From positions 1,674,001 through 1,738,000 of the forward strand of contig NZ_CP084004.1 in assembly GCF_020181355.1 (NCBI RefSeq): a stretch of 64,000 bases of DNA, in the 5' to 3' direction. The position numbers were made by a program, and so were the translations under genes. The notes beneath the pieces were generated by a model. It was given only the letters and a program-made list of their open reading frames with translations. It ran no database searches and was not told where the DNA came from. The DNA comes from Collinsella aerofaciens. GTDB lineage: Bacteria; Actinomycetota; Coriobacteriia; Coriobacteriales; Coriobacteriaceae. Below, piece by piece: positions 12,240 to 58,394 of this stretch. Position 1 is the first letter of the stretch. Every line of letters begins with the position of its first letter.

Positions 12240-12302
12240 GGCCTGGGGCTCGTTGCCGGGCTTTTGGCCTGCTGTGTTTGGCTTGTGAAAGGGGTAATCG
12301 AG

Positions 12303-14420: not shown

Positions 14421-14472
14421 TTGACTCAGCTGATGTATTCGACTGATCCACGTTTCTTTTGAAAGGCTGCAC

Positions 14473-17894: not shown

Positions 17895-17930
17895 ATTGGC
17901 TGCTCGGTTTGGTAAAATACCGCCGCACTT

Positions 17931-18027: not shown

Positions 18028-18036
18028 TACGCTACC

Positions 18037-18091
18037 AGCGCTTTTGTGCTCGCGGTCTTGCTGCGTGCCGCAAAGGCGCTGTTTTGTTTTT
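18037..18091 (+). terminator. Possible terminator behind tRNA-Sec
   Basis: AGCGCTTTT (18037-18045) can pair with AAAGGCGCT (18072-18080) with one mismatch, followed by a T-rich run. It lies just after the tRNA-Sec CCA end and before mobA. The long loop makes it weaker than the other terminators in the window. Confidence 0.4.
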
Positions 18092-18182
18092 GCATGGGTT
18101 TGCCGTGCCGCCCGCTTTATCGGCGACGGTATTTAGCTTCGTGCACCGGGTTTCGAGCATGCCGATGGGGGTGTTTTGCCGT

Positions 18183-39251: not shown

Positions 39252-39291
39252 GCCGCGTTATTCAATTCATTTATGGGAAGGAGTAATAACA

Positions 39292-39831: not shown

Positions 39832-39908
39832 GTGCGGTGCCGCGAATCAAATCGTTAGCACCGCGATATCTGATACAAATTTGGCAATCCGAAGAAGGGC
39901 GCGATCAC

Positions 39909-41176: not shown

Positions 41177-41406
41177 AAAAGGCCCCGGATTTCGGCTCCG
41201 AGGCTGGCCACGTCCTGAGCTTTAAGCAAAGGGCTACCCATATTATGCCGCATTGCAACAAAATGTAAACCGAACACGTTATGGAGATTGGAGACCTTAA
41301 ACGAAAAGAAACCCCACCGCGCACGGCTGGAACCTTGGCGCGTTGGGGTGATAGCAAGGATGCCGGAGTAACACGGAGATAGCTCCGGGCAACCTTGGAA
41401 CATTAT
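41177..41406. other. Non-coding gap with two hairpins before the integrase
   Basis: No gene seen. A G/C hairpin at about 41183-41210 (GCCTCGGA/TCCGGGGC read on the minus strand, followed there by CTTTTTTAT) may stop transcription running from the integrase side. A 12-bp imperfect inverted repeat lies at 41311-41322 and 41338-41349 (ACCCCACCGCGC). Confidence 0.5.
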
Positions 41407-43389: not shown

Positions 43390-43420
43390 CGCCCGCCGTG
43401 CCATTAAGGTGCGGCGGGCG
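43390..43420. other. Stable hairpin between the zinc-ribbon gene and thrS
   Basis: CGCCCGCCG (43390-43398) pairs perfectly with CGGCGGGCG (43412-43420). There is no T run on either side beyond AAAA upstream, so it may terminate minus-strand transcription or act in RNA. Confidence 0.45.
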
Positions 43421-43421
43421 C

Positions 43422-43449
43422 TTGTATACCAAGGCAACCTGCCTATAAT
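43422..43449 (+). promoter_or_regulatory. Probable sigma-70-type promoter of thrS
   Basis: TTGTAT (43422-43427), 16-base spacer, TATAAT (43444-43449). The -10 is perfect. The start codon is 71 bases downstream. Confidence 0.6.
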
Positions 43450-43519
43450 GATGCAAGTCAAAAACGCCGAGCGCATCGCACGCACTTGCATCAGGCATCC
43501 GAGAGGAGAAAACATACCC

Positions 43520-45283
43520 ATGAAGGCACTCTACAATGACGGTTCGGTGGCCGAGCTCCCGCAGGACGAGGTCACGCACGTCATCCGCCACTCCGCCGCG
43601 CACATCATGGCGCAGGCCATCAAGCGCCTCTATCCCGAGGCCGACTTTGCCTACGGTCCCGCGACCGACAACGGCTTCTATTACGACGTCGACCTGCCCG
43701 AGGGCGTCAAGATCAGCGAGGACGATTTCCCCGCGATCGAGGCCGAGATGAAAAAGATTGTCAAGGAGAACCTCAAGTTCTCCGTGTACGAGAAGCCCCG
43801 CGCCGAGGCCATCGCCCTTATGGAGGAGCGCGGCGAGAAGTACAAGGTCGAGCACATCGGCGACCTGGACGACGACGCCCGCATTACCTTCTACCAGCAG
43901 GGCGACTACATCGACATGTGCGTCGGCCCCCACATCTGCTACACCAAGGCCCTCAAGGCCTTTAAGCTCACCGGCGTCTCGGGCGCCTACTGGAAGGGCG
44001 ACAAGGACAACAAGATGCTCACCCGCATCAACGGCGTCGCCTTTGCCACCAAGGAAGAGCTCGACGAGCACATGCACATGCTGGAGGAGGCCAGGAAGCG
44101 CGACCACCGCAAGATCGGTCGCGAGATGGACCTCTTTATGATGCGCGACGAGGCCCCCGGCTTCCCGTTCTTCCTGCCCAACGGCATGATCCTTAAGAAC
44201 GCGCTGCTGGACTACTGGCGCGAGATCCACCACAAGGCCGGCTACGTGGAGATCTCCACGCCGCTCATCATGAACAAGCAGCTGTGGAAGACCTCGGGTC
44301 ACTGGGACCACTACAAGGACAACATGTACTCCACCGTCATCGACGACGAAGAGTACTGCATTAAGCCCATGAACTGCCCGGGCGGCGTGCTGGTGTACGC
44401 CTCCAAGCCGCATTCCTATCGCGAGCTGCCCATTCGCGCCGGCGAGATTGGCCTGGTGCACCGCCACGAGCTGCGCGGCGCCCTGCACGGCCTGTTCCGC
44501 GTGCGCTGCTTTAACCAGGACGACGCTCACCTGTTTGTGCGTCCCGACCAGCTGACCGACGAGATCGTGGGCGTGGTCAACCTCATCGACTCCGTGTACC
44601 AAAAGTTTGGCTTTAAGTACCACGTTGAGCTTTCTACCCGCCCCGAGGACTCCATGGGTTCCGACGAGGACTGGGCGCGCGCCGAGGAGGGCCTGCGCAC
44701 CGCTCTGGAGCAGCTGCATATGGACTATGAGGTCAACGAGGGCGACGGCGCCTTCTACGGCCCCAAGATCGACTTCCACCTGGAGGACTCGCTCGGCCGC
44801 ACTTGGCAGTGCGGTACCGTCCAGCTCGACTTCCAGATGCCGCTCAACTTTGACCTGGAGTACGTAGACGCCGACGGCACCAAGAAGCGCCCCATCATGC
44901 TGCACCGCGTGTGCTTTGGCTCCATCGAGCGCTTCATCGGTATTCTGATTGAGCACTTTGCTGGCAAGTTCCCCACCTGGCTGGCCCCCGTGCAGGTCAA
45001 GGCGCTTCCGGTTTCCGAGAAGAGCCGCGACTACGCCCACGAGGTGTGCGCCAAGCTGGAGGAGGCCGGCATCCGCGTGGTCTGCGACGACCGTGACGAG
45101 AAGATTGGCTACAAGATCCGCGAGGCCCGCAGCATCGATCGCGTGCCCTACATGCTTATCCTGGGCGAGAAGGAGGTCGAGGCCGGCAACATCTCCGTCC
45201 GCGATCGCTCCAACGAGACCGTTCAGATGAGCGTTGACGAGTTTGTTGCCAAGGTACTCGAGGAGATTAAAACCCGCGCCTAA
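43520..45283 (+). CDS. thrS: Threonyl-tRNA synthetase without TGS domain
   Basis: 587 aa from the ATG at 43520 (GAGAGGAG upstream), against about 640 in the full-length family. The protein begins almost directly at the editing domain (HVIRHSAAHIMAQAIKRLYP near residue 18; CVGPHICYT near 135), so the N-terminal ~60-residue TGS domain is absent. The class II catalytic core has MNCPGG near 290 and RHELRGALHGLFRVR near 318, with the anticodon domain at the C-terminus. No in-frame TGS coding is visible upstream. It ends at a strong terminator. Confidence 0.96.
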   Translation: MKALYNDGSVAELPQDEVTHVIRHSAAHIMAQAIKRLYPEADFAYGPATDNGFYYDVDLPEGVKISEDDFPAIEAEMKKIVKENLKFSVYEKPRAEAIALMEERGEKYKVEHIGDLDDDARITFYQQGDYIDMCVGPHICYTKALKAFKLTGVSGAYWKGDKDNKMLTRINGVAFATKEELDEHMHMLEEARKRDHRKIGREMDLFMMRDEAPGFPFFLPNGMILKNALLDYWREIHHKAGYVEISTPLIMNKQLWKTSGHWDHYKDNMYSTVIDDEEYCIKPMNCPGGVLVYASKPHSYRELPIRAGEIGLVHRHELRGALHGLFRVRCFNQDDAHLFVRPDQLTDEIVGVVNLIDSVYQKFGFKYHVELSTRPEDSMGSDEDWARAEEGLRTALEQLHMDYEVNEGDGAFYGPKIDFHLEDSLGRTWQCGTVQLDFQMPLNFDLEYVDADGTKKRPIMLHRVCFGSIERFIGILIEHFAGKFPTWLAPVQVKALPVSEKSRDYAHEVCAKLEEAGIRVVCDDRDEKIGYKIREARSIDRVPYMLILGEKEVEAGNISVRDRSNETVQMSVDEFVAKVLEEIKTRA

Positions 45284-45304
45284 GGCAACCCAACAGAAAC
45301 AACG

Positions 45305-45340
45305 AAAGGCGACCGTCCACAAAGGGCGGTCGCCTTTTTT
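45305..45340 (+). terminator. Rho-independent terminator of thrS
   Basis: Stem AAAGGCGACCG (45305-45315) with its complement (45327-45337), loop of 11, T run to 45340. Confidence 0.93.
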
Positions 45341-45395
45341 AATGCCAAAACGAGAAAAAGCCGCTGGTAGAGCGCCTTTTTTGTTGTGCAAAAAG

Positions 45396-45518
45396 GTACA
45401 GGTTTTTGTATCTTTCGACGCGAGCCATTATACAAGTTAATTCGGACTGTTTTCCCAGATTGCACAAATTGCGGCGCGAAAGGACACATCTCCATAACCC
45501 CCCTACAAAAACCTGTAC
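45396..45518. repeat. Widely spaced inverted repeat ahead of the polysaccharide locus
   Basis: GTACAGGTTTTTGTA at 45396-45410 and its exact complement at 45504-45518, each flanked outside by an A/T-rich GCAAAA-type extension. 93 bases lie between, A/T-rich, and the pair ends 89 bases before the antiterminator gene. It could be a regulatory loop or invertible-element-like boundary. Confidence 0.6.
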
Positions 45519-45607
45519 TTTTGCGACTGCGCCTAGCTGCGAGCGAGAAGATGTTCTAAACGCCCCGGTATTTGCGTGCGTCGCAAAGCCAGAAAAGGGG
45601 GCGAGAG

Positions 45608-46198
45608 ATGGAGCAGACAACGCGGCGCCAAGAGCAACTGCCGGGCGCATTCAACGGCGCAACTACCAACAGCCAGCATGGCCGCGTCCGCTGGTATCTG
45701 GTCCACACCCCCAACGGTAAAGAGCGCGAGACCTGCGAAAAGGTCCGCCGTATTATCCCGCACGATCTGATGCAGGACGCTTTTGTGATGCAAAAGGAGT
45801 TCTGGTTTAAGCGGGACGGCGCCTGGTCGCTCCAAACCAAACCCATGTACAAGGAATATTTCTTCGTCGCCACGCACGATGCCGCAGCGCTCGATAGGGC
45901 TTTGGCTCAACTGAGCTTTGGCTGCCGCATTGCCGGCAGCAGGGAGCGGGCCTATGCGCCTATGCCGGACGATGCGCAGGAGTGGTACCGCAGCGTGCTG
46001 GACGACGACGGAGTGGTGCGCAACAGCGTGGCGCGCATAGAAGATGGCGTGCTGCACATAGAGCAGGGTCCACTTGTGGGGCAAGAGGCCCGCGTTAAAA
46101 AGGTCGACCGTCATAAGCGCTGGTGCCTGGTGGACGTGGGCGAAGGCGTCTCCGCTTTTAGGGAGCTGCTTCCGCTGGACGTTCCCAGCAAAACGTAA
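45608..46198 (+). CDS. NusG-family specialised antiterminator (LoaP/UpxY-like)
   Basis: 196 aa from the ATG at 45608 (AAAGGGGG upstream). The NGN domain is visible as RWYLVHTPNGKERETCEKVR near residue 31, KPMYKEYFFVAT near 83, and a C-terminal KOW-like stretch GPLVGQEARVKKVDRHKRW near 160. Unlike housekeeping NusG it stands at the head of a polysaccharide cluster, the classical position of LoaP, UpxY and RfaH relatives that help RNA polymerase read through long operons. Target leader sequence not identified; the region downstream contains an 11-G run. Confidence 0.85.
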   Translation: MEQTTRRQEQLPGAFNGATTNSQHGRVRWYLVHTPNGKERETCEKVRRIIPHDLMQDAFVMQKEFWFKRDGAWSLQTKPMYKEYFFVATHDAAALDRALAQLSFGCRIAGSRERAYAPMPDDAQEWYRSVLDDDGVVRNSVARIEDGVLHIEQGPLVGQEARVKKVDRHKRWCLVDVGEGVSAFRELLPLDVPSKT

Positions 46199-46246
46199 GG
46201 GATACGTTGCACCGGCAATTTATTTGGTTTTTGAATTTGTGGATTT

Positions 46247-46257
46247 GGGGGGGGGGG
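46247..46257 (+). repeat. Poly-G tract of 11 G upstream of the sugar transferase
   Basis: Eleven consecutive G (46247-46257) in the gap between the antiterminator and the sugar transferase, 29 bases upstream of the proposed GTG start. Homopolymers of this length slip readily during replication. Confidence 0.9.
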
Positions 46258-46286
46258 TTCCTGGGGACAGGAACGAAAGTTTTATT

Positions 46287-47087
46287 GTGACTGCTAAAGA
46301 AGTAACAGAGAATAATGCGCCCGTGGGGGCGACGCTCATTGCTCGGGCCATGGACCGGCGCAAGGGCACGGCGGGTGCTGGGGTCGGCTCCGCTGCAAAC
46401 ACGGGTGCGGTGAGCCTCCCGGGCTCGCCCGAGTTCGCTGCAGAGTCCCGTGCGCTCGACACGCGATCGCTTGGCTACCGCTTCGTGAAGCGCACGTTCG
46501 ACATCGCGTTCAGTGCGTGCGTCTGCGTCGTGGCTCTTATCCCTGGCACGGTTCTTTGCGCGTTCATTGCGGCCGACACCAAGGGTGCTCCCATCTATGC
46601 GCACGAGCGGGCTGGGCGCTTCGGTCGCCCCATCCGCGTGCTCAAGTTCCGCTCCATGGTCGCCGACGCCAACGACGTGGAGAAGTACCTCAGCCCCGAG
46701 CAGATCGAGGAGTGGCACCGCGAGCGGAAGGTCACAAACGATCCCCGCATCACCAAGCTAGGCCGCGTCCTGCGCAAGACTTCCCTGGACGAGCTGCCCC
46801 AGTTCTTCAACGTGCTCGCGGGCCAGCTCTCCGTCATCGGCCCTCGCGCCATCACCTACGAGGAGCTCGGGAACTATACGCACGAGCAACAGGTGCAGGT
46901 GCTTGCCGTCCCGCAGGGCATTACCGGTGCCTGGCAGTCGGGCCCGCGCAACCTCGCGACCTTCGAGAACGGCCTGCGCCAGGAGTTCGAGCTTGCCTAC
47001 GCGAAGGGTGCCAGCCTCAAGGCAGACTGGAAGGTCTTCTTCAAGACCTTTGGCGTCATGTTCGGCAAGAAGAAGACGGGGAGGTAG
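46287..47087 (+). CDS. Undecaprenyl-phosphate sugar phosphotransferase (initiating sugar transferase)
   Basis: 266 aa from the GTG at 46287 (GAAAG 7 bases upstream); an ATG at 46350 is an alternative. One N-terminal membrane helix (FDIAFSACVCVVALIPGTV near residue 72), then the bacterial sugar transferase domain: RVLKFRSMVADAN near 112, KTSLDELPQFFNVLAGQ near 167, GPRAITYEE near 188. It loads the first sugar phosphate onto the lipid carrier and so starts repeat-unit synthesis. First structural gene of the polysaccharide locus; downstream of an 11-G run that may affect its expression. Confidence 0.9.
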   Translation: MTAKEVTENNAPVGATLIARAMDRRKGTAGAGVGSAANTGAVSLPGSPEFAAESRALDTRSLGYRFVKRTFDIAFSACVCVVALIPGTVLCAFIAADTKGAPIYAHERAGRFGRPIRVLKFRSMVADANDVEKYLSPEQIEEWHRERKVTNDPRITKLGRVLRKTSLDELPQFFNVLAGQLSVIGPRAITYEELGNYTHEQQVQVLAVPQGITGAWQSGPRNLATFENGLRQEFELAYAKGASLKADWKVFFKTFGVMFGKKKTGR

Positions 47088-47090
47088 CGC

Positions 47091-48008
47091 ATGAGTGCTG
47101 ACAAACCCCTCGTCTCGATCGTGGTGCCGACCTACAAGCGCTCTGACAGGATTCGCGTGGCCCTGGACTCAATCGCCGCGCAGGACTACGGCGCGGAGAA
47201 CATCGAACTGATTGTAGTGAGCGACAATCGGCCGGAGTGGCCGGAAAGCGCCGAGACCGACGCGGCGGTCGCCCCCTATGCCGCGAGCCTTCCGCACTTT
47301 AGGCTGCTGCACACCTCCGGCCAGACCGGCGGCGGGGCGGCGCGCAACTACGCCTGCCGCCAGGCGACGGGCGAGTACCTCACGTTCCTCGACGATGACG
47401 ACGAGTTCCTGCCTGACAAGGTGTCCACCCAGGTCGCCTTCATGCAGGAAAACTCCCTCGACATGAGCTGGCAGGATGTCTCGTGGTATGACGAACGTGG
47501 CCGGCTTGTGGAGCACCGCAGGCTCGACCATTGCGAGGACTTCTCCACCGAGGGTCTGCTGCGCGCGCACCTCCTAACGCCGATAAGCCCAACGGCCATC
47601 TATATGCTCAGGCGCGACCTGTTCGACCGCACTGAGGGTTTCGGCGAGGTGGCGACCGGCCAAGACTGGTGGCTGATGCTGCGCTGCATAGAGGCTGGCG
47701 CCCACATGGGCTACATGCCCGAGGTGCACGTGAGGCAGTACCTCCATTCCGGCGAGAGGCTCTCGCTTGGCAAGAACAAGGTAAACGGCGAGGTCGCAAG
47801 GCACGAGGTGGTGCGCGGCTACTACCCGCGCCTCAGCAAGAAGGATGTGCGCTACATCGAATTTCGCCACAACGCCGTGCTCGCCTTCGCTATGAAGCGC
47901 AGCAACCAGCCAGGCCAGGCTGTGATTTACGCCTTAAAGGCCATTGCCTCATCGCCCGCCGCCTGCGTCTCTGAGGCGCTGAAGTTCTTCGGCAAGGCGA
48001 AATCCTAA
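47091..48008 (+). CDS. Family 2 glycosyltransferase
   Basis: 305 aa. GT-A fold: [13 protein letters not shown] near residue 9, the [19 protein letters not shown] segment near 81 and the metal-binding [13 protein letters not shown] near 101. GT2 enzymes add single sugars from nucleotide donors to the lipid-linked repeat. It begins 3 bases after the sugar transferase. The donor and acceptor cannot be predicted. Confidence 0.9.
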
Positions 48009-48051
48009 CTATTTCATATGTGTGCCTGCTCTTAACGAAAGGTTGAATGAT

Positions 48052-49323
48052 ATGTCCGAAAAAATGAAGATAGCAGTCGCCGGCACCGGCTATGTGGGGC
48101 TCTCGTTGGCCGTTCTGCTCTCGCAGCACAACGAGGTGCGCGCGCTCGACATCGTCTCCGAGAAGGTAGAGAAGATTAACGCTTTTCAGTCGCCCATCCA
48201 GGACGACGAGATTGAGCTCTTCCTGGCCGAGGCTAAGGCGGGCACGAGGAAGCTCGACCTGCATGCAACCGTGGACGTCGCCGAGGCCTATACAGGCGCG
48301 GATTTCGCCATCGTGGCCACGCCAACGAACTACGACTCGGACCGCAACTTTTTCGACACCTCGTCTGTTGAAGCCGCAATTTCGGCAATCCGCTCGGTGA
48401 ACCCGACGGCCTGGATTGTCATCAAGTCGACCATCCCTGTGGGTTACACTTCGTCGCTTCGCGAGACGCTTGGCGACAGCCGCATCATCTTCAGCCCCGA
48501 GTTCCTTCGAGAGAGCAAGGCGCTCTACGATAATTTGCACCCTAGCCGCATCGTTGTGGGCGCGCCCAAGGACGACGAGGAAGCTGTGAAGGCCGCAAAG
48601 ACGTTTGCTGGGCTGCTCGCCCAAGGCGTCGGCCCCGCCGAGCTTGAGCGCACCAACCCTGATGGCACGACGGGCATCCCGCAGCTCGTTCTTGGTACCA
48701 CCGAGGCGGAGGCCGTGAAGCTGTTCGCCAACACCTACCTGGCACTTCGCGTGGCGTACTTCAATGAGCTGGACACTTACTGCGAGATGAGGGGACTCAA
48801 CACCAAGGACGTCATCGATGGCGTGTGCCTAGAGCCCCGCATTGGCTCCCACTACAACAACCCCTCCTTCGGCTACGGCGGCTACTGCCTGCCCAAGGAC
48901 ACCAAGCAGTTGCTGGCCAACTATAAGGACGTGCCTCAGAACCTTATCGAGGCCATCGTCGATGCCAACCGCACTCGCAAGGACTACATTGCAGACGAGG
49001 TACTGCAACTGCTGTGGGACAAGGTATACGAAGGCAAGGAGAAGCCCGTGGCGGGCGTGTACCGCCTGACCATGAAGTCGAACTCCGACAATTTCCGCGC
49101 CAGTTCCATCCAGGGCGTTATGAAGCGCGTGAAGGCCAAGGGAGTGCCGGTCGTTGTCTACGAGCCAACGCTGGACGCGCCGGAATTCTTCGGTTCCGAG
49201 GTGACGCATGACCTTGAGAAGTTCAAGGCCGAGTGCGACGTGATCATTGCCAACCGGTGGAGCGACGATCTGGCCGATGTTGCCGGCAAGGTGTATACCC
49301 GCGACCTATTCAAGAGGGATTAG
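48052..49323 (+). CDS. ugd: UDP-glucose 6-dehydrogenase
   Basis: 423 aa from the ATG at 48052 (AAAGG upstream). NAD site [20 protein letters not shown] near residue 6; the catalytic cysteine lies in [14 protein letters not shown] near 276; STIPVGYT near 128 is conserved. It oxidises UDP-glucose to UDP-glucuronate, the precursor for glucuronate and, with the epimerase encoded later in the locus, galacturonate residues. This makes a uronic-acid-containing polymer likely. Confidence 0.92.
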
Positions 49324-49328
49324 TATTT

Positions 49329-50621
49329 GTGGCGATTACTGCTGATAAAAAAAAGAGACGGCTGCTCCTTCTGACGAGGAGGTTCCCCTTTAACCGCGGC
49401 GAGGTCGCCGCTGAGTCCTATCTCGAGAACGAGATAGGCGTTCTTTCGACCTATTTCGACGAGGTGCTCGCCGTGGGGACCGAGGCGCAGCCGGGTGACG
49501 CGCCCACCTGCGCGCTGCCGGGCAATGTGACGCCCCTGGCCTTGGGTTGCGGTAATACCTCCAAGGACAAGGCTTTGCTTGCAGTCAAAGGGATCGCGTT
49601 TCCCCTTTTGGGCGGTGCGGACGTTCGTGAGGCCTATGCCACAGAATCCGTTCATGGAATCGGAAAGCGCGTGTTTCGGGGCTACTTTGCCGCGAGGGCG
49701 AAGGCAAAGGCGGACGTGCTTGCGGAGGAACTGGTCCGCTTTGGCTTTGAGCCCACGCACATATACAGCTTTTGGCTTTACGACACCGCTTTGGTCGCTG
49801 CTTGGCTGACCGGCACGTACCCATGTGCACGCGCCGTTGCGCGTGCACATGGGTACGATCTGTATGCAGATCGTACCCATGTGCATTATTTGCCCTTCCG
49901 GGGATACCTCCTATCCAAGCTTTCCGGAGTGCTTCCCTGCTCGAAAGACGGGGAGGAATACATAAACGCGAACTGGCCGGGCCATGAGGGCAAGGTGACG
50001 ACCTCCTATCTCGGAACGCGGGAGATGCCAGACAAGTCCGGCGAGCCGTTGACCTGCCCGTTGCGGGTCGTCTCGTGCTCGCGTATTGTCGACGTTAAGC
50101 GCGTGCCTCTTCTTGCTAAGGCTGTCACCCTTCTTGATGCCGAAGGGCTTCGCGTCGAATGGACCCATTACGGCGACGGCCCACAGCTCGAGGAGGCGAG
50201 GGCCGCCTGCTCGTTGCTGACGCACTCCACCGCGAAGTTCGCGGGGGCTTTGCCGAACGACGCGCTTTTGGGGGAGTACGCAGCGAAGCATTTCGACGTC
50301 TTCGTGAACGTCTCGTCAAGCGAGGGCCTGCCGCTTTCGATCATGGAGGCCTGCGGATTCGGCATTCCCGTCATCGCCACGGACGTTGGCGGAACCCACG
50401 AGATAGTAAGCGATGGCGTCAACGGCTTTCTCCTACCTAGCGACTGTGGACCGGAAGATGTCGCCGCGGCCATAAAGCGATTCGTCTTTTTGGGCAAGGC
50501 CGAAGGGTCTTCTATGAGGCGCGCTGCAAGGGCCGTTTGGGAGAGGGACTTCCGTTTGGAGGCCAACGTGGAGGGGCTTGTGCGCTCGCTCGGAGTCGAT
50601 TACAGAAACGAAGGTGAATGA
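49329..50621 (+). CDS. Family 4 glycosyltransferase containing two overlapping palindromes
   Basis: 430 aa from the GTG at 49329, just after ugd. GT-B fold: RRFPFNRGEVAAESYLENE near residue 16, ARAHGYDLYADR near 174 and the donor-site SSSEGLPLSIMEACGFGIPV near 334. In the middle of the gene (49816-49885), over the codons for TYPCARAVARAHGYDLYADR, three copies of one 19-base block alternate in orientation and can form either of two perfect hairpins. The amino acid motif RAHGYDLY is itself conserved in this GT group, so the gene is probably intact. Confidence 0.88.
   Translation: MAITADKKKRRLLLLTRRFPFNRGEVAAESYLENEIGVLSTYFDEVLAVGTEAQPGDAPTCALPGNVTPLALGCGNTSKDKALLAVKGIAFPLLGGADVREAYATESVHGIGKRVFRGYFAARAKAKADVLAEELVRFGFEPTHIYSFWLYDTALVAAWLTGTYPCARAVARAHGYDLYADRTHVHYLPFRGYLLSKLSGVLPCSKDGEEYINANWPGHEGKVTTSYLGTREMPDKSGEPLTCPLRVVSCSRIVDVKRVPLLAKAVTLLDAEGLRVEWTHYGDGPQLEEARAACSLLTHSTAKFAGALPNDALLGEYAAKHFDVFVNVSSSEGLPLSIMEACGFGIPVIATDVGGTHEIVSDGVNGFLLPSDCGPEDVAAAIKRFVFLGKAEGSSMRRAARAVWERDFRLEANVEGLVRSLGVDYRNEGE
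49816..49885. repeat. Two overlapping perfect palindromes sharing a middle arm
   Basis: Palindrome 1: 49816-49834 with 49839-49857 (19 bp, 4-base loop). Palindrome 2: 49844-49862 with 49867-49885 (19 bp, 4-base loop). The block CATGGGTACG is shared, so only one hairpin can form at a time. All lies within coding sequence. Confidence 0.95.
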
Positions 50622-51568
50622 TGGGCCAGATTGCGCAGAAGATGACCATGCTCAAAAGGTGGAGCAAAATGCTCACTGGCAAGACGGCTGTGGCCGTAGA
50701 GCAGAGCATGGGCAGGGCCTATAATGTCGGACAGTTGTCCGGGTACTACAACGATTTGACCGGCAAGGTCACTGGCAGTACTCTGCTCGACGAGGGCGGT
50801 GTCCCTGTTAGCGTCATCGCCGGTGGGGCGCGGGTGCATTTCCCCATCGCCATTTTCCAATACGGTTTGGGCTGTTACGACTTGAGCATTCTCAGGTCGG
50901 ATGAAGTTGAGCGCTTTCTCGACGCACTAAGGGTATGCTCGGATTGGGCGATCGGCGCCCAGCGGGATGACGGCTCTTGGGACGCATTTGGTCCGATAGG
51001 CAGCGCTAAGTACTCCGTCTCCTCGATGGCCCAAGGCGAGGGGTGCTCGATGCTGCTGAGGGCCCATGCGGCTTTCGGGGACGAGTGCTATAGAGTTGCG
51101 GCGCTGAAAGCTGCCGAGTTCATGCTTATCGACATGGACAATGGCGGCGTGTCGTCGCATGACGGGGGAGAACTGTTCCTGGAGGAGTACCCTCAACGCC
51201 CCAGGCGCAGTGTCATGAACGGTTGGGTGTTTAGCCTTTTCGGTCTCTATGACGCATCGTTGGTCGACGCGCGCTTCGCCGGGCCATTCAAGCACTCTGC
51301 GGAGACGTTGGCTTGCCATTTGGATGACTACGACGCCGGCTTCTGGTCTTATTACGACATGGAAAAGCGTATCGCCTCTCCCGCCTACCATCATCTACAT
51401 ATAGCGCAGCTCCGCGCAATGGCGGATCTTTCAGGCGACGCAAGGTTCGCGGTGAAGGCCGAGGTATACGAGCGCTATCAGGAATCTCCGGCCAACCGCA
51501 GGAAGGCGATTGCTAAAAAGGCGCTGCAGAAGCTGATCGAGAAATCCGATGCGGTGATCGTCCAATGA
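50618..51568 (+). CDS. D-glucuronyl C5-epimerase C-terminal domain protein
   Basis: 316 aa; the ATG at 50618 overlaps the preceding stop, and an ATG at 50621 is equally possible. The part from about residue 90 resembles the catalytic C-terminal domain of heparosan glucuronyl C5-epimerase: QRDDGSWDAF near 115, MNGWVFSLFGLYDAS near 203 and GFWSYYDMEKRIASPAYHHL near 245. In animals and a few bacteria this domain converts glucuronate to iduronate within a polymer. No signal peptide is seen, so it may act on lipid-linked intermediates in the cytoplasm. Context (ugd, uronate epimerase) fits a uronic-acid polymer. Confidence 0.8.
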   Translation: MMGQIAQKMTMLKRWSKMLTGKTAVAVEQSMGRAYNVGQLSGYYNDLTGKVTGSTLLDEGGVPVSVIAGGARVHFPIAIFQYGLGCYDLSILRSDEVERFLDALRVCSDWAIGAQRDDGSWDAFGPIGSAKYSVSSMAQGEGCSMLLRAHAAFGDECYRVAALKAAEFMLIDMDNGGVSSHDGGELFLEEYPQRPRRSVMNGWVFSLFGLYDASLVDARFAGPFKHSAETLACHLDDYDAGFWSYYDMEKRIASPAYHHLHIAQLRAMADLSGDARFAVKAEVYERYQESPANRRKAIAKKALQKLIEKSDAVIVQ

Positions 51569-52668
51569 AGAAGGCCCTCTATATCGTGACCTCGATGGAC
51601 ACCGGCGGGGCCGAGACGGTATTCATGAAGTATTACCGGGCTTTGGACAAGTCGCGCTATCAGCTCGACTTCTGTGTGTCGTCCGACGTGCCGGGCTTTT
51701 ACGACGCCGAAATCGAGTCGATGGGCGGCAGAATTGTGCACACAGTCAAGAAGACCGAGGCCGGGCCGGTCGCTTCGTTCAAGCGGCTCATGCAGATAGC
51801 CCGGGACGGCGGTTATTGCTGTGCTGTCAGGTCGTCTCAGCACAGTCTTTCCTGTCTTGATTTGCTCGCCATGAGATTCGGAGGCGTGTCCAGAACCATA
51901 TTCAGGTCAAGCAACACGGGTACAGTTTCGAACAGCAAAAAGGAGACCCTGCTGCACAATCTTTTCAAGCCCCTTGTCAGGGTTGCGGCGACCGACTTCG
52001 CCGCCCCGTCTACCGAGGCGGGCGTCTACATGTTCGGCAAGGCGGGGGTATCGGGGCCGCGTTTCCATCTCATGAAGAACGCGCTCAACCTCGAGGACTA
52101 CGCCTATGACGCTTCGACACGGGACGATGTTAAGCGCGAACTGGGCGTTCCTGCCGAGTCCTATGTCGTCGGGCACGTCGGGAGGTTCAGTGAGCAGAAG
52201 AACCACCTCTTCCTTGTCGATGTTTTTGCTGAAATCGCCCGGAGAAGGCCAGACGCCGTCCTCATTCTCGTCGGCAAAGGCGAGACACGCACGGCCGTTG
52301 AGAGGCGCGTTGCCGAGCTCGGATTGACCGATAGGGTGGTGTTTGCCGGGGTTAGGAGCGATGTCTGCCGTCTCTATTCGGCTATGGACGTCTTCATCTT
52401 CCCCTCTGTCTACGAAGGCCTGCCGAACGTCGTCGTCGAGGCGCAGGCAAACGGACTCCCTTGCGTGATTAGCGACTCCATCACGCGGGAGGTTGGCATT
52501 TGCGAGAACGTCGTTTACAAAAGTCTGGGCGACGCTCTGGACGAATGGGCCGACGCCGCGCTCTCCGCGGATCGCATAGGGTCAAGCGCCAGTGCGAGGG
52601 ATTTGAAAGGCTCGGGCTATGAAATCAATTCGGAGCTTCCCGGTTTCGTGAGGCTGGTATTCGGATGA
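51565..52668 (+). CDS. Family 4 glycosyltransferase
   Basis: 367 aa. N-terminus LYIVTSMDTGGAETVFMKYY near residue 4 is a classical GT4 start; the donor site region VGHVGRFSEQKNHLFLVDVF near 193 and FPSVYEGLPNVVVEAQANG near 277 complete the GT-B signature. It overlaps the upstream epimerase gene (ATGA) and the polymerase gene downstream (ATGA), so it is translationally coupled on both sides. Donor sugar unknown. Confidence 0.9.
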   Translation: MKKALYIVTSMDTGGAETVFMKYYRALDKSRYQLDFCVSSDVPGFYDAEIESMGGRIVHTVKKTEAGPVASFKRLMQIARDGGYCCAVRSSQHSLSCLDLLAMRFGGVSRTIFRSSNTGTVSNSKKETLLHNLFKPLVRVAATDFAAPSTEAGVYMFGKAGVSGPRFHLMKNALNLEDYAYDASTRDDVKRELGVPAESYVVGHVGRFSEQKNHLFLVDVFAEIARRRPDAVLILVGKGETRTAVERRVAELGLTDRVVFAGVRSDVCRLYSAMDVFIFPSVYEGLPNVVVEAQANGLPCVISDSITREVGICENVVYKSLGDALDEWADAALSADRIGSSASARDLKGSGYEINSELPGFVRLVFG

Positions 52669-53753
52669 ACTTTATCGAAACATCGCTTTTCTACTTTCTT
52701 GTCGTTTTGCTTTCAGCGGCGCTTGCGCGCATGTCGGAAAACGGCAAAAGTAAGGCTGGGCTGGTCGCTGCCGTGGTTCTTCTTACCGCCGTCGGGGGCT
52801 TGAGGTCGTATGCGGTTGGGCAGGATACCCTGGGTTATAAAGAGGGAATCGAGTACTTCTACGCGTATGGGACCACGATGTGGAACCATACGTTCAGCGT
52901 TCCGTACGGTGTCTTCACAAGTGCGGTGCTCCATATCTGTAACAATTACTCGTTCTTGCTCGTCGTCGAGTCGCTGATCACCAACGCCTTTTTTGCTTTC
53001 AGGCTTTGGGATTTTAGACGAACGGCATCGCTCTCGTTTGCGATGTTCGTCTATACGGCAACGGTGTTCCCGCTGTCTATGTGTCTGACGTGCCAGATGA
53101 TTGCAGTCTCGCTGGTTTTCTACGCAACCAGGTTTTTAGAACAGAATAAGCCGTTGCTTTTTTGCGCTTGGTGGGCTGTTGGCGCTCTTTTGCACGCGTC
53201 CGCCCTGATAGGGGTCCTATTCCTCATCTACTACCTATTTTCCAACAAAAGCAAGAGCCGATCGCAGTTCGCCGCGAAGATGTTTGCATCGGTTGCCCTG
53301 CTGTTCCTGGCAGCTTATGCGGGCTCTAAGCTCGTCGACCGGTATGCGCGTTACTCCGTGAACGAATCGAGCATCGGGTTGATGGTTTTTGCGCAGGCGA
53401 CCGTCCTCGCGATCGCATATTTCGTCAGCCGCGAAACTGCGAATGTTGCCCCGGTTGAGAGCGACGGAACGTCGCGGCTCAAAGCCAACCGGATGCCGCT
53501 CGTGTTTTACGCTTTAGGCATTTTGGCTTCGGCGTCCTCTTATGTGATTGCCAACGCCGGCCGCATAGCCTATTACTTCACCGTATTAGGCCCCGTGATT
53601 TTCGGAGGCTTCGTGAAGGACGCTCGGAAAATAAAAGCCCGTTTTTGTCTTGGCTGTTTTCTAGTTGTCTGGTTCCTTTTCTACGCCTTTTATGCCTATC
53701 TGCTTCATACCGGGCTTGGTATCGAGTCTTATTCGTTCGTCTGGATGGGGTAA
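52665..53753 (+). CDS. EpsG/Wzy-type polysaccharide polymerase
   Basis: 362 aa with about ten hydrophobic segments. N-terminal part has GGLRSYAVGQDTLGYKEGI near residue 45, a signature of EpsG-family proteins that polymerise repeat units at the membrane, and ALLHASALIGVLFLIYYL near 175. It overlaps the preceding GT4 gene. A hairpin and a drop in G+C content follow its stop, marking the border to the second half of the locus. Confidence 0.85.
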   Translation: MNFIETSLFYFLVVLLSAALARMSENGKSKAGLVAAVVLLTAVGGLRSYAVGQDTLGYKEGIEYFYAYGTTMWNHTFSVPYGVFTSAVLHICNNYSFLLVVESLITNAFFAFRLWDFRRTASLSFAMFVYTATVFPLSMCLTCQMIAVSLVFYATRFLEQNKPLLFCAWWAVGALLHASALIGVLFLIYYLFSNKSKSRSQFAAKMFASVALLFLAAYAGSKLVDRYARYSVNESSIGLMVFAQATVLAIAYFVSRETANVAPVESDGTSRLKANRMPLVFYALGILASASSYVIANAGRIAYYFTVLGPVIFGGFVKDARKIKARFCLGCFLVVWFLFYAFYAYLLHTGLGIESYSFVWMG

Positions 53754-53757
53754 ATAG

Positions 53758-53778
53758 TGCCCGAAACCGTTTCGGGCA
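53758..53778 (+). other. Short perfect hairpin in the gap after the polymerase gene
   Basis: TGCCCGAAA pairs with TTTCGGGCA around CCG. No T run follows. It may attenuate transcription inside the locus, which a LoaP-type factor could overcome. Confidence 0.5.
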
Positions 53779-53896
53779 TATACGAGCAAAGTCTACGTTG
53801 GTGGTTTGCATACGCCCAGGGCTTGTTCCATGTGTAGCGCAGAGAATTAAAAAGTAAAACGCTTTGTTTAAGCTCGGACTTAAGGAAATTGTATAT

Positions 53897-54844
53897 ATGG
53901 AAAGCAAAATTAAAAAATACCTAAGTGACCCGTGGATGGCCTACTGTGCCTTTACGTCGAAGGGTCTAACGAAATGGGTTTCCGACAGGACGCACCTTCG
54001 ATTGATGCATCGCGCCAAGTTGGGCATGTGGCCTAGCATAGACTCGCCGGTGACCTTCACTGAGAAGATGCAGTGGCTGAAGCTTAACGATCACAACCCT
54101 GCGTACACGACCATGGTCGACAAGTACCGCGCTAAGGACCTCATTGCCTCGCGTGTGGGCTCCGAGCACGTGGTCAAGACGTTGGGCGCCTGGAATTCCG
54201 CTGATGACATCGATGTGAGTGGGCTACCGGAGAAGTTCGTACTCAAAACGAATCACGACTGCGGCGGCGTGCTCATCTGCACTGACAAGGGACACTTCGA
54301 TCTCAACAGTGCCAAGGACTTTTTTCGGGGTCATTTGAAGCAGAATTATTTTTACGGGTGCAGGGAATGGCCTTACAAGAACGTGAAGCCCGTCGTGTTC
54401 GCCGAGGAGTTCTTGGAGAGCGAGGGCGATAATGCCCGTGATGAAGACGATAACTGGGAAGGCATCGACGAGTTCGACTTCTTCTGCTTTGACGGGGAAC
54501 CCCGGCTGATTTCTTATTGCCACGGGGACAAGAACGATTCTGAGAAGAGGTACAACGATTTCTACGACACTGAGTGGAATCTGCTGCCTTTGGCGATGGG
54601 ATACGCGAGTTCCGAAGAGACGATCCCTGCCCCGGAGCAGCTCAGCGAGATGCTCGAGCTATCAAGGAAACTGAGTGACGGTGTACCTTTCTTGAGGGTC
54701 GACCTCTTCATCTGCAAGGGGCGCGTTCTCGTCGGCGAGCTGACTTTCTACCCGTGGGGCGGGTTTACGCCTTTCAGCCCCGCTGAGGCGGAGAGGACGT
54801 TGGGGCAAATGGTTTCTTTGCCCCAACGTGAAAACGAGGAATGA
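53897..54844 (+). CDS. TupA-like ATP-grasp protein
   Basis: 315 aa from the ATG at 53897 (AAGGA 10 bases upstream). TupA-like features: FTEKMQWLKLND near residue 54, TTMVDKYRAKDLIAS near 72, KFVLKTNHDCGGV near 112 and the late RVDLFICKGRVLVGELTFYP near 285, which supplies Mg/ATP ligands. This ATP-grasp group attaches amino acids or similar groups to polysaccharides. Codon use is less G/C-biased than in the genes upstream, hinting at separate acquisition. Confidence 0.85.
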   Translation: MESKIKKYLSDPWMAYCAFTSKGLTKWVSDRTHLRLMHRAKLGMWPSIDSPVTFTEKMQWLKLNDHNPAYTTMVDKYRAKDLIASRVGSEHVVKTLGAWNSADDIDVSGLPEKFVLKTNHDCGGVLICTDKGHFDLNSAKDFFRGHLKQNYFYGCREWPYKNVKPVVFAEEFLESEGDNARDEDDNWEGIDEFDFFCFDGEPRLISYCHGDKNDSEKRYNDFYDTEWNLLPLAMGYASSEETIPAPEQLSEMLELSRKLSDGVPFLRVDLFICKGRVLVGELTFYPWGGFTPFSPAEAERTLGQMVSLPQRENEE

Positions 54845-54928
54845 TGGCAAACGAAAGCTGCATTCAGTGCGTGCGCATGGATAATCAGCCAGTAAGCGCG
54901 CTCCGGCGTTTCTTCATGGAGGTTTAGT

Positions 54929-56395
54929 ATGTCCGACACAAAAGACCTCCGGGCGAGGTCGGCAAGCGCGGCAAAGTGGTCTCTGGCAACCGAGATTATC
55001 GCCAAAATCATCTCGCCTATCTCGCAGCTCGTCTTAGCGAGGCTGCTGGCGCCAGAGGCGTTTGGCATGGTGGCGACCGTCACCATGGTAGTGAGCTTTG
55101 CCGACATGTTCGCGGACGCCGGGTTCCAGAAGTACCTGGTGCAACACAGCTTCCGAGACAAAAAAGACCTGCATGCCAACGCTAACGTGGCCTTTTGGAC
55201 GAACTTCGGCATATCGGTGGTCCTGTGGTGTCTCATTGCCATATTCAACGATCCGGTGGCCACCTTCGTGGGCAATCCGTCGCTGGGCTTTCCCTTGGCC
55301 GTGGCCTGCCTCTCTCTCCCGTTGACGTCGTTTTCGAGCATTCAGATGGCGTTGTTCCACCGTAATCTCGATTTCAAGTCGCTTATGCCGGTGAGACTGA
55401 CGTCGACCTTACTTAACTTCGGCTCGACGCTTGTACTGGCGTTTATGGGATTTGGTTACTGGTCACTTATCGTTGGCACTTTGGCGGCGAATATTGTAAA
55501 TGCAGTGGGGCTGACTCTGCTGTCTGAGTGGAAGCCGCGTTTTTTCTACTCCTTCAACATGCTGAAGGCTATGTTCTCATTCAGCGGATGGACGCTTTTG
55601 GAGTCGTTCACCATATGGCTTTCCTCTTGGGCGGGCACCTTTATCGTGGGGCATTTCCTGGGTGCGGCTGAGTTGGGATATTACAAGACGCCAGTCACCT
55701 TTGTGAGCGGGTGCTTCGGGATTATCACGAACGCTACGACGCCCATCTTGTTCTCGTCACTTTCGCGCCTTCAGTTTGATCGGGAAGAATACGTTGCTTA
55801 TCTGCGACGCTTCCAGTTCATGGTGGCATTGTTCCTGTTGCCGTTGTCTGCGGGTATCTTCGTATTCCGCGAGCCTTTGGTGGCCCTGTTGCTCGGCGAT
55901 CAGTGGGGCGAGGCGACGCTCATGTTCGGGTTGTATGGGCTGGTGCAGGGGCCGATGGTGCTGCTCTCATACTACAGCAGCGAGATGTATCGCTCTCTTG
56001 GTAAACCGCGCGTGTCTACGCTTGTGCAGGTGATGTACCTCGTGTTGATGACGCCGCTTATGACCGTGGCGGCTATGCAAGGGTTCGATGCCGTCGTGTG
56101 GGCTGATGCGGGATTGAGAATCCTTTTGATTGCTATCAACCAAGTGGTCACATATTTCGTGGTTGGCCTTTCGTTTGGGCGCACTATGTTGTCGCTCAAG
56201 GAGCCCATTTTCTGCACATCGATGATGTGCGCATTTGCATGGGTGACGTATGGACTCGCATCTAGCAACTGGCTTGGCGTCGGGTTGGACATTGTAGGGT
56301 GCGTCGTTGTCTATTTCGCGATTTGCTTTGCTTTGCCCAAGAGTAGGAGGGTGCTGCTGAAGCTGGTCAAGGGCGGCGGCTTTAAAACGTTTTGA
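54929..56395 (+). CDS. Wzx-type polysaccharide flippase
   Basis: 488 aa, MATE/PST-like flippase with about 12-14 membrane helices. The N-terminus SASAAKWSLATEIIAKIISP near residue 9 and LARLLAPEAFGMVATVTMVV near 36 are typical of the lipopolysaccharide biosynthesis (PF13440-like) group. It moves lipid-linked repeats across the membrane for polymerisation. It has a GGAGG ribosome site 85 bases after the ATP-grasp gene. Confidence 0.9.
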   Translation: MSDTKDLRARSASAAKWSLATEIIAKIISPISQLVLARLLAPEAFGMVATVTMVVSFADMFADAGFQKYLVQHSFRDKKDLHANANVAFWTNFGISVVLWCLIAIFNDPVATFVGNPSLGFPLAVACLSLPLTSFSSIQMALFHRNLDFKSLMPVRLTSTLLNFGSTLVLAFMGFGYWSLIVGTLAANIVNAVGLTLLSEWKPRFFYSFNMLKAMFSFSGWTLLESFTIWLSSWAGTFIVGHFLGAAELGYYKTPVTFVSGCFGIITNATTPILFSSLSRLQFDREEYVAYLRRFQFMVALFLLPLSAGIFVFREPLVALLLGDQWGEATLMFGLYGLVQGPMVLLSYYSSEMYRSLGKPRVSTLVQVMYLVLMTPLMTVAAMQGFDAVVWADAGLRILLIAINQVVTYFVVGLSFGRTMLSLKEPIFCTSMMCAFAWVTYGLASSNWLGVGLDIVGCVVVYFAICFALPKSRRVLLKLVKGGGFKTF

Positions 56396-56461
56396 GGTCT
56401 GTAATTAACTTGTTGGGAGTTCCATCTCAGGACTTCCTTAAAACGAAAGAGTGGGGTATAT

Positions 56462-57502
56462 ATGCAGGATAGAAAAGTCCTCGTCACTGGCGCCGCCGGC
56501 TTCATCGGGGCGTTTCTGGTGAAGCGGCTGCTCGAAACCACCGACGACGCGATCATCGGTCTGGACAACGTGAACAGCTACTACGACCCTGGCATCAAGG
56601 AGGCTCGCCTGCGAATGCTGGCGGAGGTGGACAAGGCGGGGCGTTTCGCCTTCGTGCGCGGCGACCTGTGCGATGCCGCGTTGATAGAGCGCCTGTTCGC
56701 TGAGAACGGCTTCGACGTTGTGGTGAACTTGGCCGCCCAGGCCGGTGTGCGATACTCCATCGAGAACCCCAAGGCCTACATAGACAGCAACCTGGTAGGG
56801 TTCTTCAATATATTGGAGGCTTGCAGGCGCCACCCGGTGAAGCATCTTGTCTACGCGAGCTCTTCCTCCGTCTACGGCGGCAACGAGAAAGTGCCTTTCT
56901 CGGAGGACGACCGTGTAGACTCTCCGGTGAGCCTGTACGCCGCCACAAAGAAGTCCAACGAGCTAATGGCCGCGGCCTACTCCAAGCTTTACTCCATCCC
57001 AGCCACGGGCCTGCGCTTCTTTACGGTGTATGGGCCCATGGGAAGGCCCGACATGGCATACTTCGGCTTCACCGAGAAGTTGCGTCGTGGCGATACGATT
57101 AAGATTTTCAACATGGGCGATTGTAAGCGCGACTTTACGTACGTGGACGATATTGTGGAGGGCGTGCGCAGGGTCATGGACGGCGCTCCTGAGGTCAAGA
57201 TCGGTGTTGATGGTTTGCCAATGGCCGCTCATCGCGTGTATAACATCGGCAATTCGAATCCCGAGAACTTGCTGATCTTCGTTGATACGCTGCAGCGTGT
57301 GCTGGTTGAGGAGGGCGTGCTCCCCGCCGATTACGATTTCGAGGCGCATAAGCAGCTCGTTCCTATGCAGCCTGGTGACGTGCCTGTAACCTATGCGGAT
57401 ACTGGCGCCTTGGAGCGCGATTTTGGTTACAAACCCGCAACGCCGCTCGAGGACGGTCTTCGTGAATTCGCGAAGTGGTATCGCGAGTTCTACGGGAATT
57501 AG
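56462..57502 (+). CDS. NAD-dependent epimerase, probable UDP-glucuronate 4-epimerase
   Basis: 346 aa, extended SDR. NAD site VTGAAGFIGAFLVKRL near residue 8; YVASSS-type VYASSSSVYGG near 131; catalytic YAATKKSNE near 160; GDCKRDFTYVDDIVEGV near 219. The family as a whole (GAE/Gla) turns UDP-glucuronate into UDP-galacturonate. With ugd it supplies uronic acid donors to the locus. Downstream of it the acetyltransferase begins after 13 bases. Confidence 0.87.
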   Translation: MQDRKVLVTGAAGFIGAFLVKRLLETTDDAIIGLDNVNSYYDPGIKEARLRMLAEVDKAGRFAFVRGDLCDAALIERLFAENGFDVVVNLAAQAGVRYSIENPKAYIDSNLVGFFNILEACRRHPVKHLVYASSSSVYGGNEKVPFSEDDRVDSPVSLYAATKKSNELMAAAYSKLYSIPATGLRFFTVYGPMGRPDMAYFGFTEKLRRGDTIKIFNMGDCKRDFTYVDDIVEGVRRVMDGAPEVKIGVDGLPMAAHRVYNIGNSNPENLLIFVDTLQRVLVEEGVLPADYDFEAHKQLVPMQPGDVPVTYADTGALERDFGYKPATPLEDGLREFAKWYREFYGN

Positions 57503-57515
57503 CTGGGTGATAGCA

Positions 57516-58025
57516 ATGTCGAATGTATACAGCAGTGACCGTATTCGCTTTGGGGGGGGGTCTATTCTCTCAAACCATGCTTTGAGGTTTGTTTGGCTAC
57601 TTCGAAAGTGCCAGAATTCGCACAATCCTTTATGGCATCTTTTTCGAAAGAGGATGGCTTGCAAATATGGTCTCGAGATCGCGCCTGCCACCTCGATTGG
57701 CGAAGGCTTGTATCTGGGTCACGCTTTTGGCATTACGGTAAACCCGAATGCCGTTATCGGTCGCAACTGCAATATGCACAAAGGTGTGACAATTGGTCGG
57801 GAAAACCGCGGCAAACGAAAAGGTGCGCCTGTTCTTGGCGATTGCGTTTGGCTTGGTGTCAACTCAACTATTGTTGGTGGCGTTCGTTTAGGCAACGACG
57901 TTCTCGTTGCACCGAACACTTATGTTAACTGCGACGTACCAAGCCATTCGATTGTGATTGGGCACCCATGCAAAATCATTTCTCGAGATGGGGCAACAGA
58001 CGAATATATAAACAACAGGGTCTGA
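57516..58025 (+). CDS. Hexapeptide-repeat acetyltransferase (serine acetyltransferase/colanic-type), poly-G containing
   Basis: 169 aa from the ATG at 57516 with only a weak ribosome site. Residues from about 65 show left-handed beta-helix repeats: IGEGLYLGHAFGITVNPNAV, IGRNCNMHKGVTIG, VWLGVNSTIVGGVRLGNDV, with the catalytic His in GHAFG or MHKG. It probably O-acetylates a sugar. The 5' coding part contains nine G in a row (57552-57560, codons for FGGGS), so loss or gain of one G would shift the frame and switch the gene off. Confidence 0.85.
   Translation: MSNVYSSDRIRFGGGSILSNHALRFVWLLRKCQNSHNPLWHLFRKRMACKYGLEIAPATSIGEGLYLGHAFGITVNPNAVIGRNCNMHKGVTIGRENRGKRKGAPVLGDCVWLGVNSTIVGGVRLGNDVLVAPNTYVNCDVPSHSIVIGHPCKIISRDGATDEYINNRV
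57552..57560 (+). repeat. Poly-G tract of 9 G inside the acetyltransferase gene
   Basis: Nine G in frame near codon 13 of the acetyltransferase. Position close to the start maximises the effect of a one-base slip. Confidence 0.9.
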
Positions 58026-58394
58026 ATAATAAAATCGGTTTTACATGTCTTATCCAGGATAGAGGGGGGGGGGGGATCGTCTTCGCTAATTACAGCGAGT
58101 TAGCGACTCAGTGAGCTTTGGCGCGCTCTGATGCGAGCGGAAGGTGAAGCAAACTGGAACGGGTAGTAGATTCCCAGAAGCTATATGCAACGTGAGTGTC
58201 AAAGATAGCGCGTCTTAACGCATAACCCTGCATTCCTCCTTTCACCGACTGGCAAAACGATTTACACCTAATTGTCGACATTACCCACGCGATTTATCTT
58301 TGCCCCCGCATCGATCTCGCTAAACTAATAACTGCTGCTACCAGGGCATTTTCTGGTGCACATTCTATTGGCTCCTGCGAAGATCGGAGCGGGT
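58026..58394. other. Intergenic region behind the polysaccharide locus
   Basis: 369 bases without a convincing gene. It contains a 12-G run at 58064-58075. No clear terminator is seen after the acetyltransferase. The last 60 bases are presumably the leader of the LPXTG gene. Confidence 0.6.
58064..58075 (+). repeat. Poly-G tract of 12 G downstream of the acetyltransferase
   Basis: Twelve consecutive G, the longest homopolymer seen in the window, 38 bases after the acetyltransferase stop and 319 bases before the LPXTG gene. Confidence 0.9.

Follow-up and report, generated by a model that had tools for sequence, protein, structure and literature searches.

A short, apparently cytosolic GLCE-type C5-epimerase in a probably phase-variable capsule exchange locus of Collinsella aerofaciens

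The window analyzed here, a stretch of 64,000 nucleotides from the probable gut bacterium Collinsella aerofaciens (contig NZ_CP084004.1, positions 1,674,001 to 1,738,000), carries a single-strand polysaccharide gene cluster of 12 proteins at 45608-58025, delineated from a list of open reading frames and from Pfam and NCBIfam profile scans. One of these proteins contains the C-terminal domain of glucuronyl C5-epimerase (GLCE), the animal enzyme by which iduronic acid arises in heparin. On balance, we consider it probable that the cluster is a capsule locus whose cytosolic, short-form epimerase would convert glucuronate (GlcA) into iduronate (IdoA) within a lipid-linked repeat unit. GLCE-type epimerases themselves are known; what is new here is a short, apparently cytosolic member within a capsule locus that is exchangeable and probably phase variable. 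The gene content, the domain identity and aligned residues of the epimerase, the lack of an N-terminal hydrophobic segment, its recurring neighbors, its patchy distribution, and the orientations of an element upstream of the cluster were computed.

The epimerase and its gene cluster

When compared with the sequences of the Protein Data Bank (PDB), the C5-epim_C protein matched only GLCE chains below an E value of 1 (4pw2, 6hzz, and 6i01; approximately 1e-14), with the significant alignment beginning near residue 100 of its 316 amino acids (aa). Alignment of a profile of 46 relatives with a human GLCE fragment in hhalign yielded a probability of 99.9% and an E value of 4e-36. The catalytic residues given for human GLCE in excerpts of PMC13308652, E499, Y500, N510, Y560, and Y578, align with E190, Y191, N201, Y246, and Y257 of the window protein. 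The equivalents of E499, N510, Y560, and Y578 were invariant in 33 of 33 close relatives (defined as those scoring at least 180 bits against the window protein), and they were retained in 47, 46, 46, and 46 of 47 remote relatives, respectively, with one row gapped. The C5-epimerase domain proposed in the initial annotation was therefore borne out, with its catalytic residues, including the tyrosines Y191, Y246, and Y257, in place by alignment. With 316 aa, the protein has no room for the N-terminal β-hairpin and β-sandwich domains of GLCE; its domain build differs, while its catalytic family is the same. No hydrophobic 19-residue window above 1.6 was observed within the first 80 residues of the window protein or its 33 close relatives (counted from the first methionine; one relative, L060, is cut at its N-terminus), and the C5-epimerase is apparently a cytosolic, short GLCE-type enzyme. 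Given a GLCE-type domain with its catalytic residues among the genes for a uronic-acid polysaccharide, iduronate can reasonably be predicted as its product.

The Wzx/Wzy capsule gene set is complete according to profile scans and hydropathy, comprising an initiating transferase, glycosyltransferases, a flippase, and a polymerase (Table 1), and one initiating transferase together with three glycosyltransferases suggests a tetrasaccharide repeat unit. By their coordinates, the frames overlap by 4 bases at the joints between GT4a and the epimerase, the epimerase and GT4b, and GT4b and the polymerase, the first of which was also read in the sequence. The stretch from loaP to the epimerase has a G+C content of 58-63%, most of the right half has 52-56%, and the sequence past 58000 has 65-66%. 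All genes named in the initial annotation, encoding a UDP-glucose dehydrogenase, a UDP-glucuronate-type epimerase, the C5-epimerase domain, Wzx, Wzy, and a LoaP-like factor, were recovered in place, with the 4-epimerase function being putative and LoaP remaining below its NCBIfam cut-off, so that it is referred to only as LoaP-like. The genome contains one match each to C5-epim_C and ATPgrasp_TupA, and the TupA-like protein had no match among PDB sequences up to an E value of 1. The Pfam scan of the 12 locus proteins detected no sulfotransferase, a result confined to the locus, as the genome outside it was not searched for them. A triple palindrome, consisting of two long hairpins with one arm in common, lies at 49816-49889 within the coding frame of GT4a; the frame is open across it, and by eye the protein aligns with that of Bifidobacterium saguini.

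Table 1. Features of the capsule locus and of the element preceding it (window positions)
Feature	Position	Strand	Basis and remarks
Inverted-repeat element, 123 bp, between thrS and loaP	45396..45518	.	15-bp perfect arms, 45396-45410 and 45504-45518, around 93 bp
LoaP-like NusG paralogue	45608..46198	+	NF033641, 88 bits, below the cut-off of 125
Initiating sugar-phosphate transferase (Bac_transf)	46199..47087	+	E 1.5e-46; start codon not fixed
Family 2 glycosyltransferase (GT2)	47091..48008	+	Pfam; 65.5% identity to GT2 of the B. saguini locus
UDP-glucose 6-dehydrogenase (would make UDP-GlcA)	48022..49323	+	Closest PDB chain 3phl, E 3e-152
Family 4 glycosyltransferase (GT4a)	49323..50621	+	47.6% identity to B. 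saguini; start codon approximate
C5-epim_C protein (PF06662), short single-domain GLCE-type, 316 aa	50618..51568	+	E 1.4e-33; 116 bits (cut-off, 23.3)
Family 4 glycosyltransferase (GT4b), directly after the epimerase	51565..52668	+	Pfam; same place in L040, L042, L047, and L064
EpsG-type polymerase (Wzy role)	52665..53753	+	E 1.3e-23; 8 hydrophobic segments
TupA-like ATP-grasp ligase	53864..54844	+	ATPgrasp_TupA, E 9.3e-49; ATG possibly at 53897
Flippase (Wzx role)	54929..56395	+	E 5e-79
Nucleotide-sugar enzyme (SDR), probably UDP-GlcA 4-epimerase	56462..57502	+	PDB relatives and motif; putative function
Hexapeptide acetyltransferase (CysE/EpsC-like)	57516..58025	+	Profile scans; start chosen after the preceding stop

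Substrate, stage of action, and competing readings

The choice of substrate depends in part on the short-chain dehydrogenase/reductase (SDR) enzyme at the end of the cluster. Its best PDB match is chain 5u4q (E 1.5e-107), labeled as a dTDP-glucose 4,6-dehydratase, further matches include WbgU and 6zl6 ("epimerase domain-containing protein"), and no listed NCBIfam equivalog passes its cut-off. Because of its RFFTVYGPxGRPDMA motif, which we take to be that of a UDP-GlcA 4-epimerase, the enzyme probably has this function and makes UDP-galacturonate (UDP-GalA). Since the locus would then probably make UDP-GalA as well, the C5-epimerase could act on galacturonate (GalA) in the repeat unit, giving L-altruronate. 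Searches bearing on the substrate covered the genomes of 22 close relatives out of the 33, and 14 of these genomes contain a UDP-glucose dehydrogenase with at least 57% identity. An SDR match at E≤1e-25 was present in eight of these 14, at 65-72% identity in six, 50% in one, and 32% in one; the six with at least 65% identity speak for altruronate, as does locus L064, in which the SDR relative adjoins the dehydrogenase within the epimerase locus. Against it, no SDR relative was found at this threshold in the other six of the 14, a cultured B. saguini strain and five metagenome-assembled genomes; the share of such assemblies weakens this negative, and weaker or unrelated 4-epimerases would have escaped the search. 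GLCE relatives, moreover, act on GlcA. The same dehydrogenase/4-epimerase pair also occurs in L139, a sister capsule locus of the genus without a C5-epimerase, and therefore has another use. Some genomes with the epimerase thus make UDP-GlcA but apparently no UDP-GalA by the SDR route, and the comparison favors conversion of GlcA to IdoA over that of GalA to altruronate; GlcA is the better fit as the substrate, and altruronate appears an unlikely product.

In Wzx/Wzy pathways, the chain is polymerized outside the membrane. Because the epimerase is apparently cytosolic whereas Wzy polymerization is extracellular, it would meet only lipid-linked units. The polymer-level epimerization and the glycosaminoglycan-like product envisaged in the initial annotation are not favored: the N-terminal hydrophobic segment is missing, the 12 locus proteins include no sulfotransferase, the repeat is probably a tetrasaccharide, and the protein has 316 aa compared with 527-585 aa for the GLCE chains. 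Although animal GLCE does act on polymer, as described in excerpts of PMC13308652, we regard action on the finished polymer as the least probable of the readings considered.

For the substrate, the stage of action, the amidation, and the promoter direction, we infer the following course. The UDP-glucose dehydrogenase would supply UDP-GlcA, and the SDR enzyme would probably provide UDP-GalA. The initiating transferase and the three glycosyltransferases would build an oligosaccharide, probably of four sugars, on the lipid carrier, and the cytosolic C5-epimerase would invert C5 of an internal GlcA to yield L-iduronate in the lipid-linked unit, which the flippase would export and the EpsG-type protein polymerize. 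The TupA-like ligase would probably form an amide at a uronate carboxylate, either that of the epimerized residue or of another uronate, and an invertible element upstream of loaP would probably turn the operon on and off. Precedent for the C5-epimerization of a lipid-linked oligosaccharide is offered by the archaeal enzyme Agl32, which is not GLCE-like (PMC13308652, in excerpt). The suggestion of the initial annotation that amino acids could be added by the TupA-like ATP-grasp has a precedent, for amino compounds, in the TupA-like domain of Cj1438 (Cj1438C), described in excerpts of PMC11800379 as forming an amide at the GlcA carboxylate in the HS:2 capsule of Campylobacter, prior to chain growth, and by analogy the window protein may amidate a uronate as well. 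A more elaborate version, in which the capsule is phase variable and the reversible conversion of GlcA to IdoA on an undecaprenyl-linked unit is fixed by TupA-like amidation instead of the sulfation found after epimerization in animals and Halobacterium, seems improbable to us, and amidation as the step fixing the epimer is speculation.

Several observations weigh against the proposed action of a cytosolic epimerase on lipid-linked GlcA. The cytosolic placement rests on a crude hydropathy measure, and no activity data were found for any short-form member. The epimerases of eukaryotes require a substrate exceeding a tetrasaccharide in length (PMC13308652, in excerpt). Only dehydrogenase relatives of 30-35% identity were present in 6 of the 22 genomes searched, including two (G659 and G661) of the four genomes whose epimerase neighbors follow the window's order, and 2 of the 22 had none. 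A TupA gene lies within 5 kb downstream in just 5 of the 26 close relatives with at least 5 kb of sequence there, and one was also found in one (L137) of nine sister capsule loci without an epimerase. Among the copies compared, the window TupA is most identical to that of L137 (37.2%), versus 33.5-36.0% for those next to epimerases in the window's gene order, which counts slightly against the reading with amidation as the fixing step. Finally, the Y500 position is variable, with tyrosine in 17 of 33 close and 34 of 47 remote relatives. This variation, together with the nearby TupA-like ligase, would suit a domain that has shifted to another uronate reaction, for example, C5 abstraction with lyase-like elimination or a reaction on an amidated uronate; however, the equivalents of E499, N510, Y560, and Y578 are kept in all relatives aligned there, and such a shift strikes us as quite unlikely.

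Relatives, their neighborhoods, and known systems

Among 65 genomes of the family and 297 sampled from the order, a single one had the C5-epim_C domain in each case, and a sample of 396 from the phylum contained 31; the genome under study is included in each count. A pattern scan of 84,980 species genomes recovered 144 confirmed relatives, of which the best 80 were analyzed. The nearest, from B. saguini, is 61% identical and joins the window protein in the tree with a support of 100/100; other close relatives, at 35-43% identity, come from Bacillota, Bacteroidota, and other groups, several of them from gut or rumen samples, to judge by their titles. Because of this patchy distribution, the epimerase gene looks horizontally acquired. 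Family-level tallies were also made around two of the relatives. In the small family to which G662 (bearing L064) belongs, 4 of 16 genomes had matches, one of them strong and the other three weak and partial; in that of G659 (L040), 2 of 397 genomes matched at E≤1e-20. Plasmid and phage searches with the epimerase retrieved remote relatives only, in 3 plasmid and 16 phage records, with less than 30% identity in the rows listed, and when the locus DNA was compared with plasmid records, the dehydrogenase was the only matching part. Of the phage records, 15 belong to Pseudomonas aeruginosa phages and one to a Bradyrhizobium phage; those listed individually (H18-H22, five rows) are annotated as hypothetical proteins.

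Several close relatives adjoin sugar transferases, glycosyltransferases, and UDP-glucose dehydrogenases. In L040, L042, L047, and L064, the epimerase is followed, in the window's order, by a GT4b relative (39.7-45.5% identity), a polytopic protein, and a TupA-like protein; the polymerase slot is occupied by EpsG in L040 and L047, by Wzy_C in L064, and by a polytopic protein without family assignment in L042. Inheritance of this cassette as one block was rejected, since its five epimerases do not form one clade and the tree needs 4 changes (the least number forced by starred branches is 3, and 59 of 500 shuffles were as low as 4). A GT4b relative scoring above 200 bits lies directly next to the epimerase in 4 of the 26 close relatives with sufficient downstream sequence. 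The counts given above do not show TupA to be a statistically enriched partner of the epimerase, and exclusivity of GT4b to epimerase loci is ruled out by a 42% identical copy in the sister locus L141, which lacks an epimerase, and by weaker relatives in other such loci. PDB matches did not settle which sugar GT4b transfers. Across the genomes picked for a nearby TupA (those of L040, L042, L047, L055, and L064), five of the seven TupA genes are the near ones. No sulfotransferase was detected among 36 proteins scanned from L040, L042, L047, and L064, with some frames left unscanned. The L047 capsule locus (5579-16552) also encodes a pyridoxal phosphate-dependent decarboxylase, a PylC-like ATP-grasp protein, and two ATPgrasp_ST proteins, a set that may serve in decoration with amines or amides.

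Among known systems, animal GLCE (PDB 6hzz and 4pw2) shares the helical catalytic domain family and the five matched catalytic residues. It differs in its build, which includes N-terminal β-hairpin dimerization and β-sandwich domains (PMC13308652, in excerpt), whereas the window protein carries no export signal by hydropathy and has no sulfation partners in its locus. The C5-epimerase of Bermanella marisrubri (Raedts et al. 2013, as cited in excerpts of PMC13308652) is likewise bacterial, and a GLCE-like mechanism was stated for it from sequence alignment; unlike a capsule enzyme acting on a precursor, it was assayed on O-desulfated heparin, and it is set beside the window protein here by description only. 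Agl32 of Halobacterium salinarum makes iduronate in a lipid-linked tetrasaccharide, and its relatives are encoded in gene islands that also contain glycosyltransferases and a UDP-glucose dehydrogenase; in contrast, it is reported to lack the GLCE catalytic residues and serves archaeal N-glycosylation, with sulfation afterwards (PMC13308652, in excerpt). In the locus of B. saguini DSM 23967 (L031), the dehydrogenase, GT2, GT4a, and C5-epimerase occur together at 65, 65.5, 48, and 61% identity, but the order of the dehydrogenase and GT2 is swapped, the downstream glycosyltransferase, polymerase, and flippase are different, and the genome has no TupA match. Campylobacter jejuni HS:2 shares a TupA-like ATP-grasp enzyme, Cj1438, which amidates the GlcA carboxylate of the capsule repeat; it differs in that the excerpts of PMC11800379 mention no C5-epimerase and in that genes for the amine donor were not recognized in the window locus.

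A short, apparently cytosolic GLCE-type family in the polysaccharide loci of many bacteria would flag genes for iduronate-containing surface polymers. In the gut, such polymers would be a possible and testable source of host-like sugar acids, and the short form would offer a compact enzyme for heparin-type chemistry.

The exchange locus and its inverted-repeat element

Of the 41 other genus genomes, 15 have a LoaP with 90-95% identity, and nine of these 15 supplied the sister loci compared (L136-L144). In all nine, thrS, loaP, and the initiating transferase occur in this order (43409-47087 in the window), while the genes behind the transferase were unlike the window's in all eight sister loci reaching further; L142 ends there. 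None of these eight showed a C5-epimerase, in keeping with the single occurrence of its domain among the 65 family genomes, and two sister loci, L138 and L144, resemble each other. L139 shares the dehydrogenase, SDR enzyme, and acetyltransferase with the window at 86, 90, and 74% identity, and because of this sharing the window locus is regarded as a mosaic. By gene order and identity, then, this is a capsule exchange locus, with capsule genes exchanged behind a fixed thrS-loaP anchor.

The element between thrS and loaP (Table 1) is probably a phase switch, with a probable invertible promoter that would be off in this assembly. It was found as a single copy in 14 of 42 genus genomes and adjoins loaP in all 14, whereas a reversed control pattern had no match in the 42. 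The genomes with a LoaP of at least 90% identity number 16, and the two outside the 14 are G011, with arms approximately 400 bases apart, and G015, with one arm near a contig start. The inner segment points toward loaP in 8 of the 14 and away from it in 6, the window included among the latter. A TATAAT hexamer is present in 13 of the 14 elements and TATAAA in the remaining one; in the window, the hexamer lies on the minus strand at 45427-45432, pointing away from loaP. No full promoter emerged from scans with the sigma-70 consensus, either for this region of the window or for L142. As perfect inverted pairs of 15-mers no more than 200 bases apart occur elsewhere in the window too, the repeat by itself is weak evidence, and it is the occurrence of both orientations among the 14 genomes that suggests a phase-variable capsule. 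A silent or relic locus that makes no polymer would agree with the outward-facing TATAAT in this assembly; however, the intact frames, the 4-base overlaps at three joints, and the presence of both element orientations across the genus, which points to switching, make this very unlikely. An integrase at 41527-42567 was considered as the invertase and is unsupported, having no match in the upstream stretches of five sister genomes; the search did not extend to recombinases elsewhere.

No paper on this element was among the matches listed for Collinsella invertible promoters, phase variation, or capsule. With the element in front of loaP, phase variation of the capsule can be tested directly in the genus. 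Collinsella and Eggerthella lenta belong to the same bacterial class. In the latter, loaP-linked capsule loci are likewise changed by DNA inversion, as described in excerpts of the preprint PMC13174815, but the inversions are on a megabase scale and use a different, 16-bp repeat, in contrast to the 123-bp element here. This 16-bp repeat was not found in the window, and no paper pairing a C5-epimerase with Eggerthella was found.

Outside the capsule genes, a segment at 38868-42567 with genes for helix-turn-helix, DUF3800, and integrase domains was unmatched in the upstream stretches of five sister genomes, while its flanking genes were matched, and it is likely an island. Repeats of 15 bp at 42624, 42664, and 42704 adjoin it. 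Near the right end of the window, an IS21 istA gene at 61700-62911 shows 99.9% identity to a record from Collinsella aerofaciens; this suggests the genus without proving it, since the gene belongs to a mobile element. Downstream of the sister capsule locus L136, two relatives of the cell-wall-type window protein at 58356-59531 were observed at 15593-18431.

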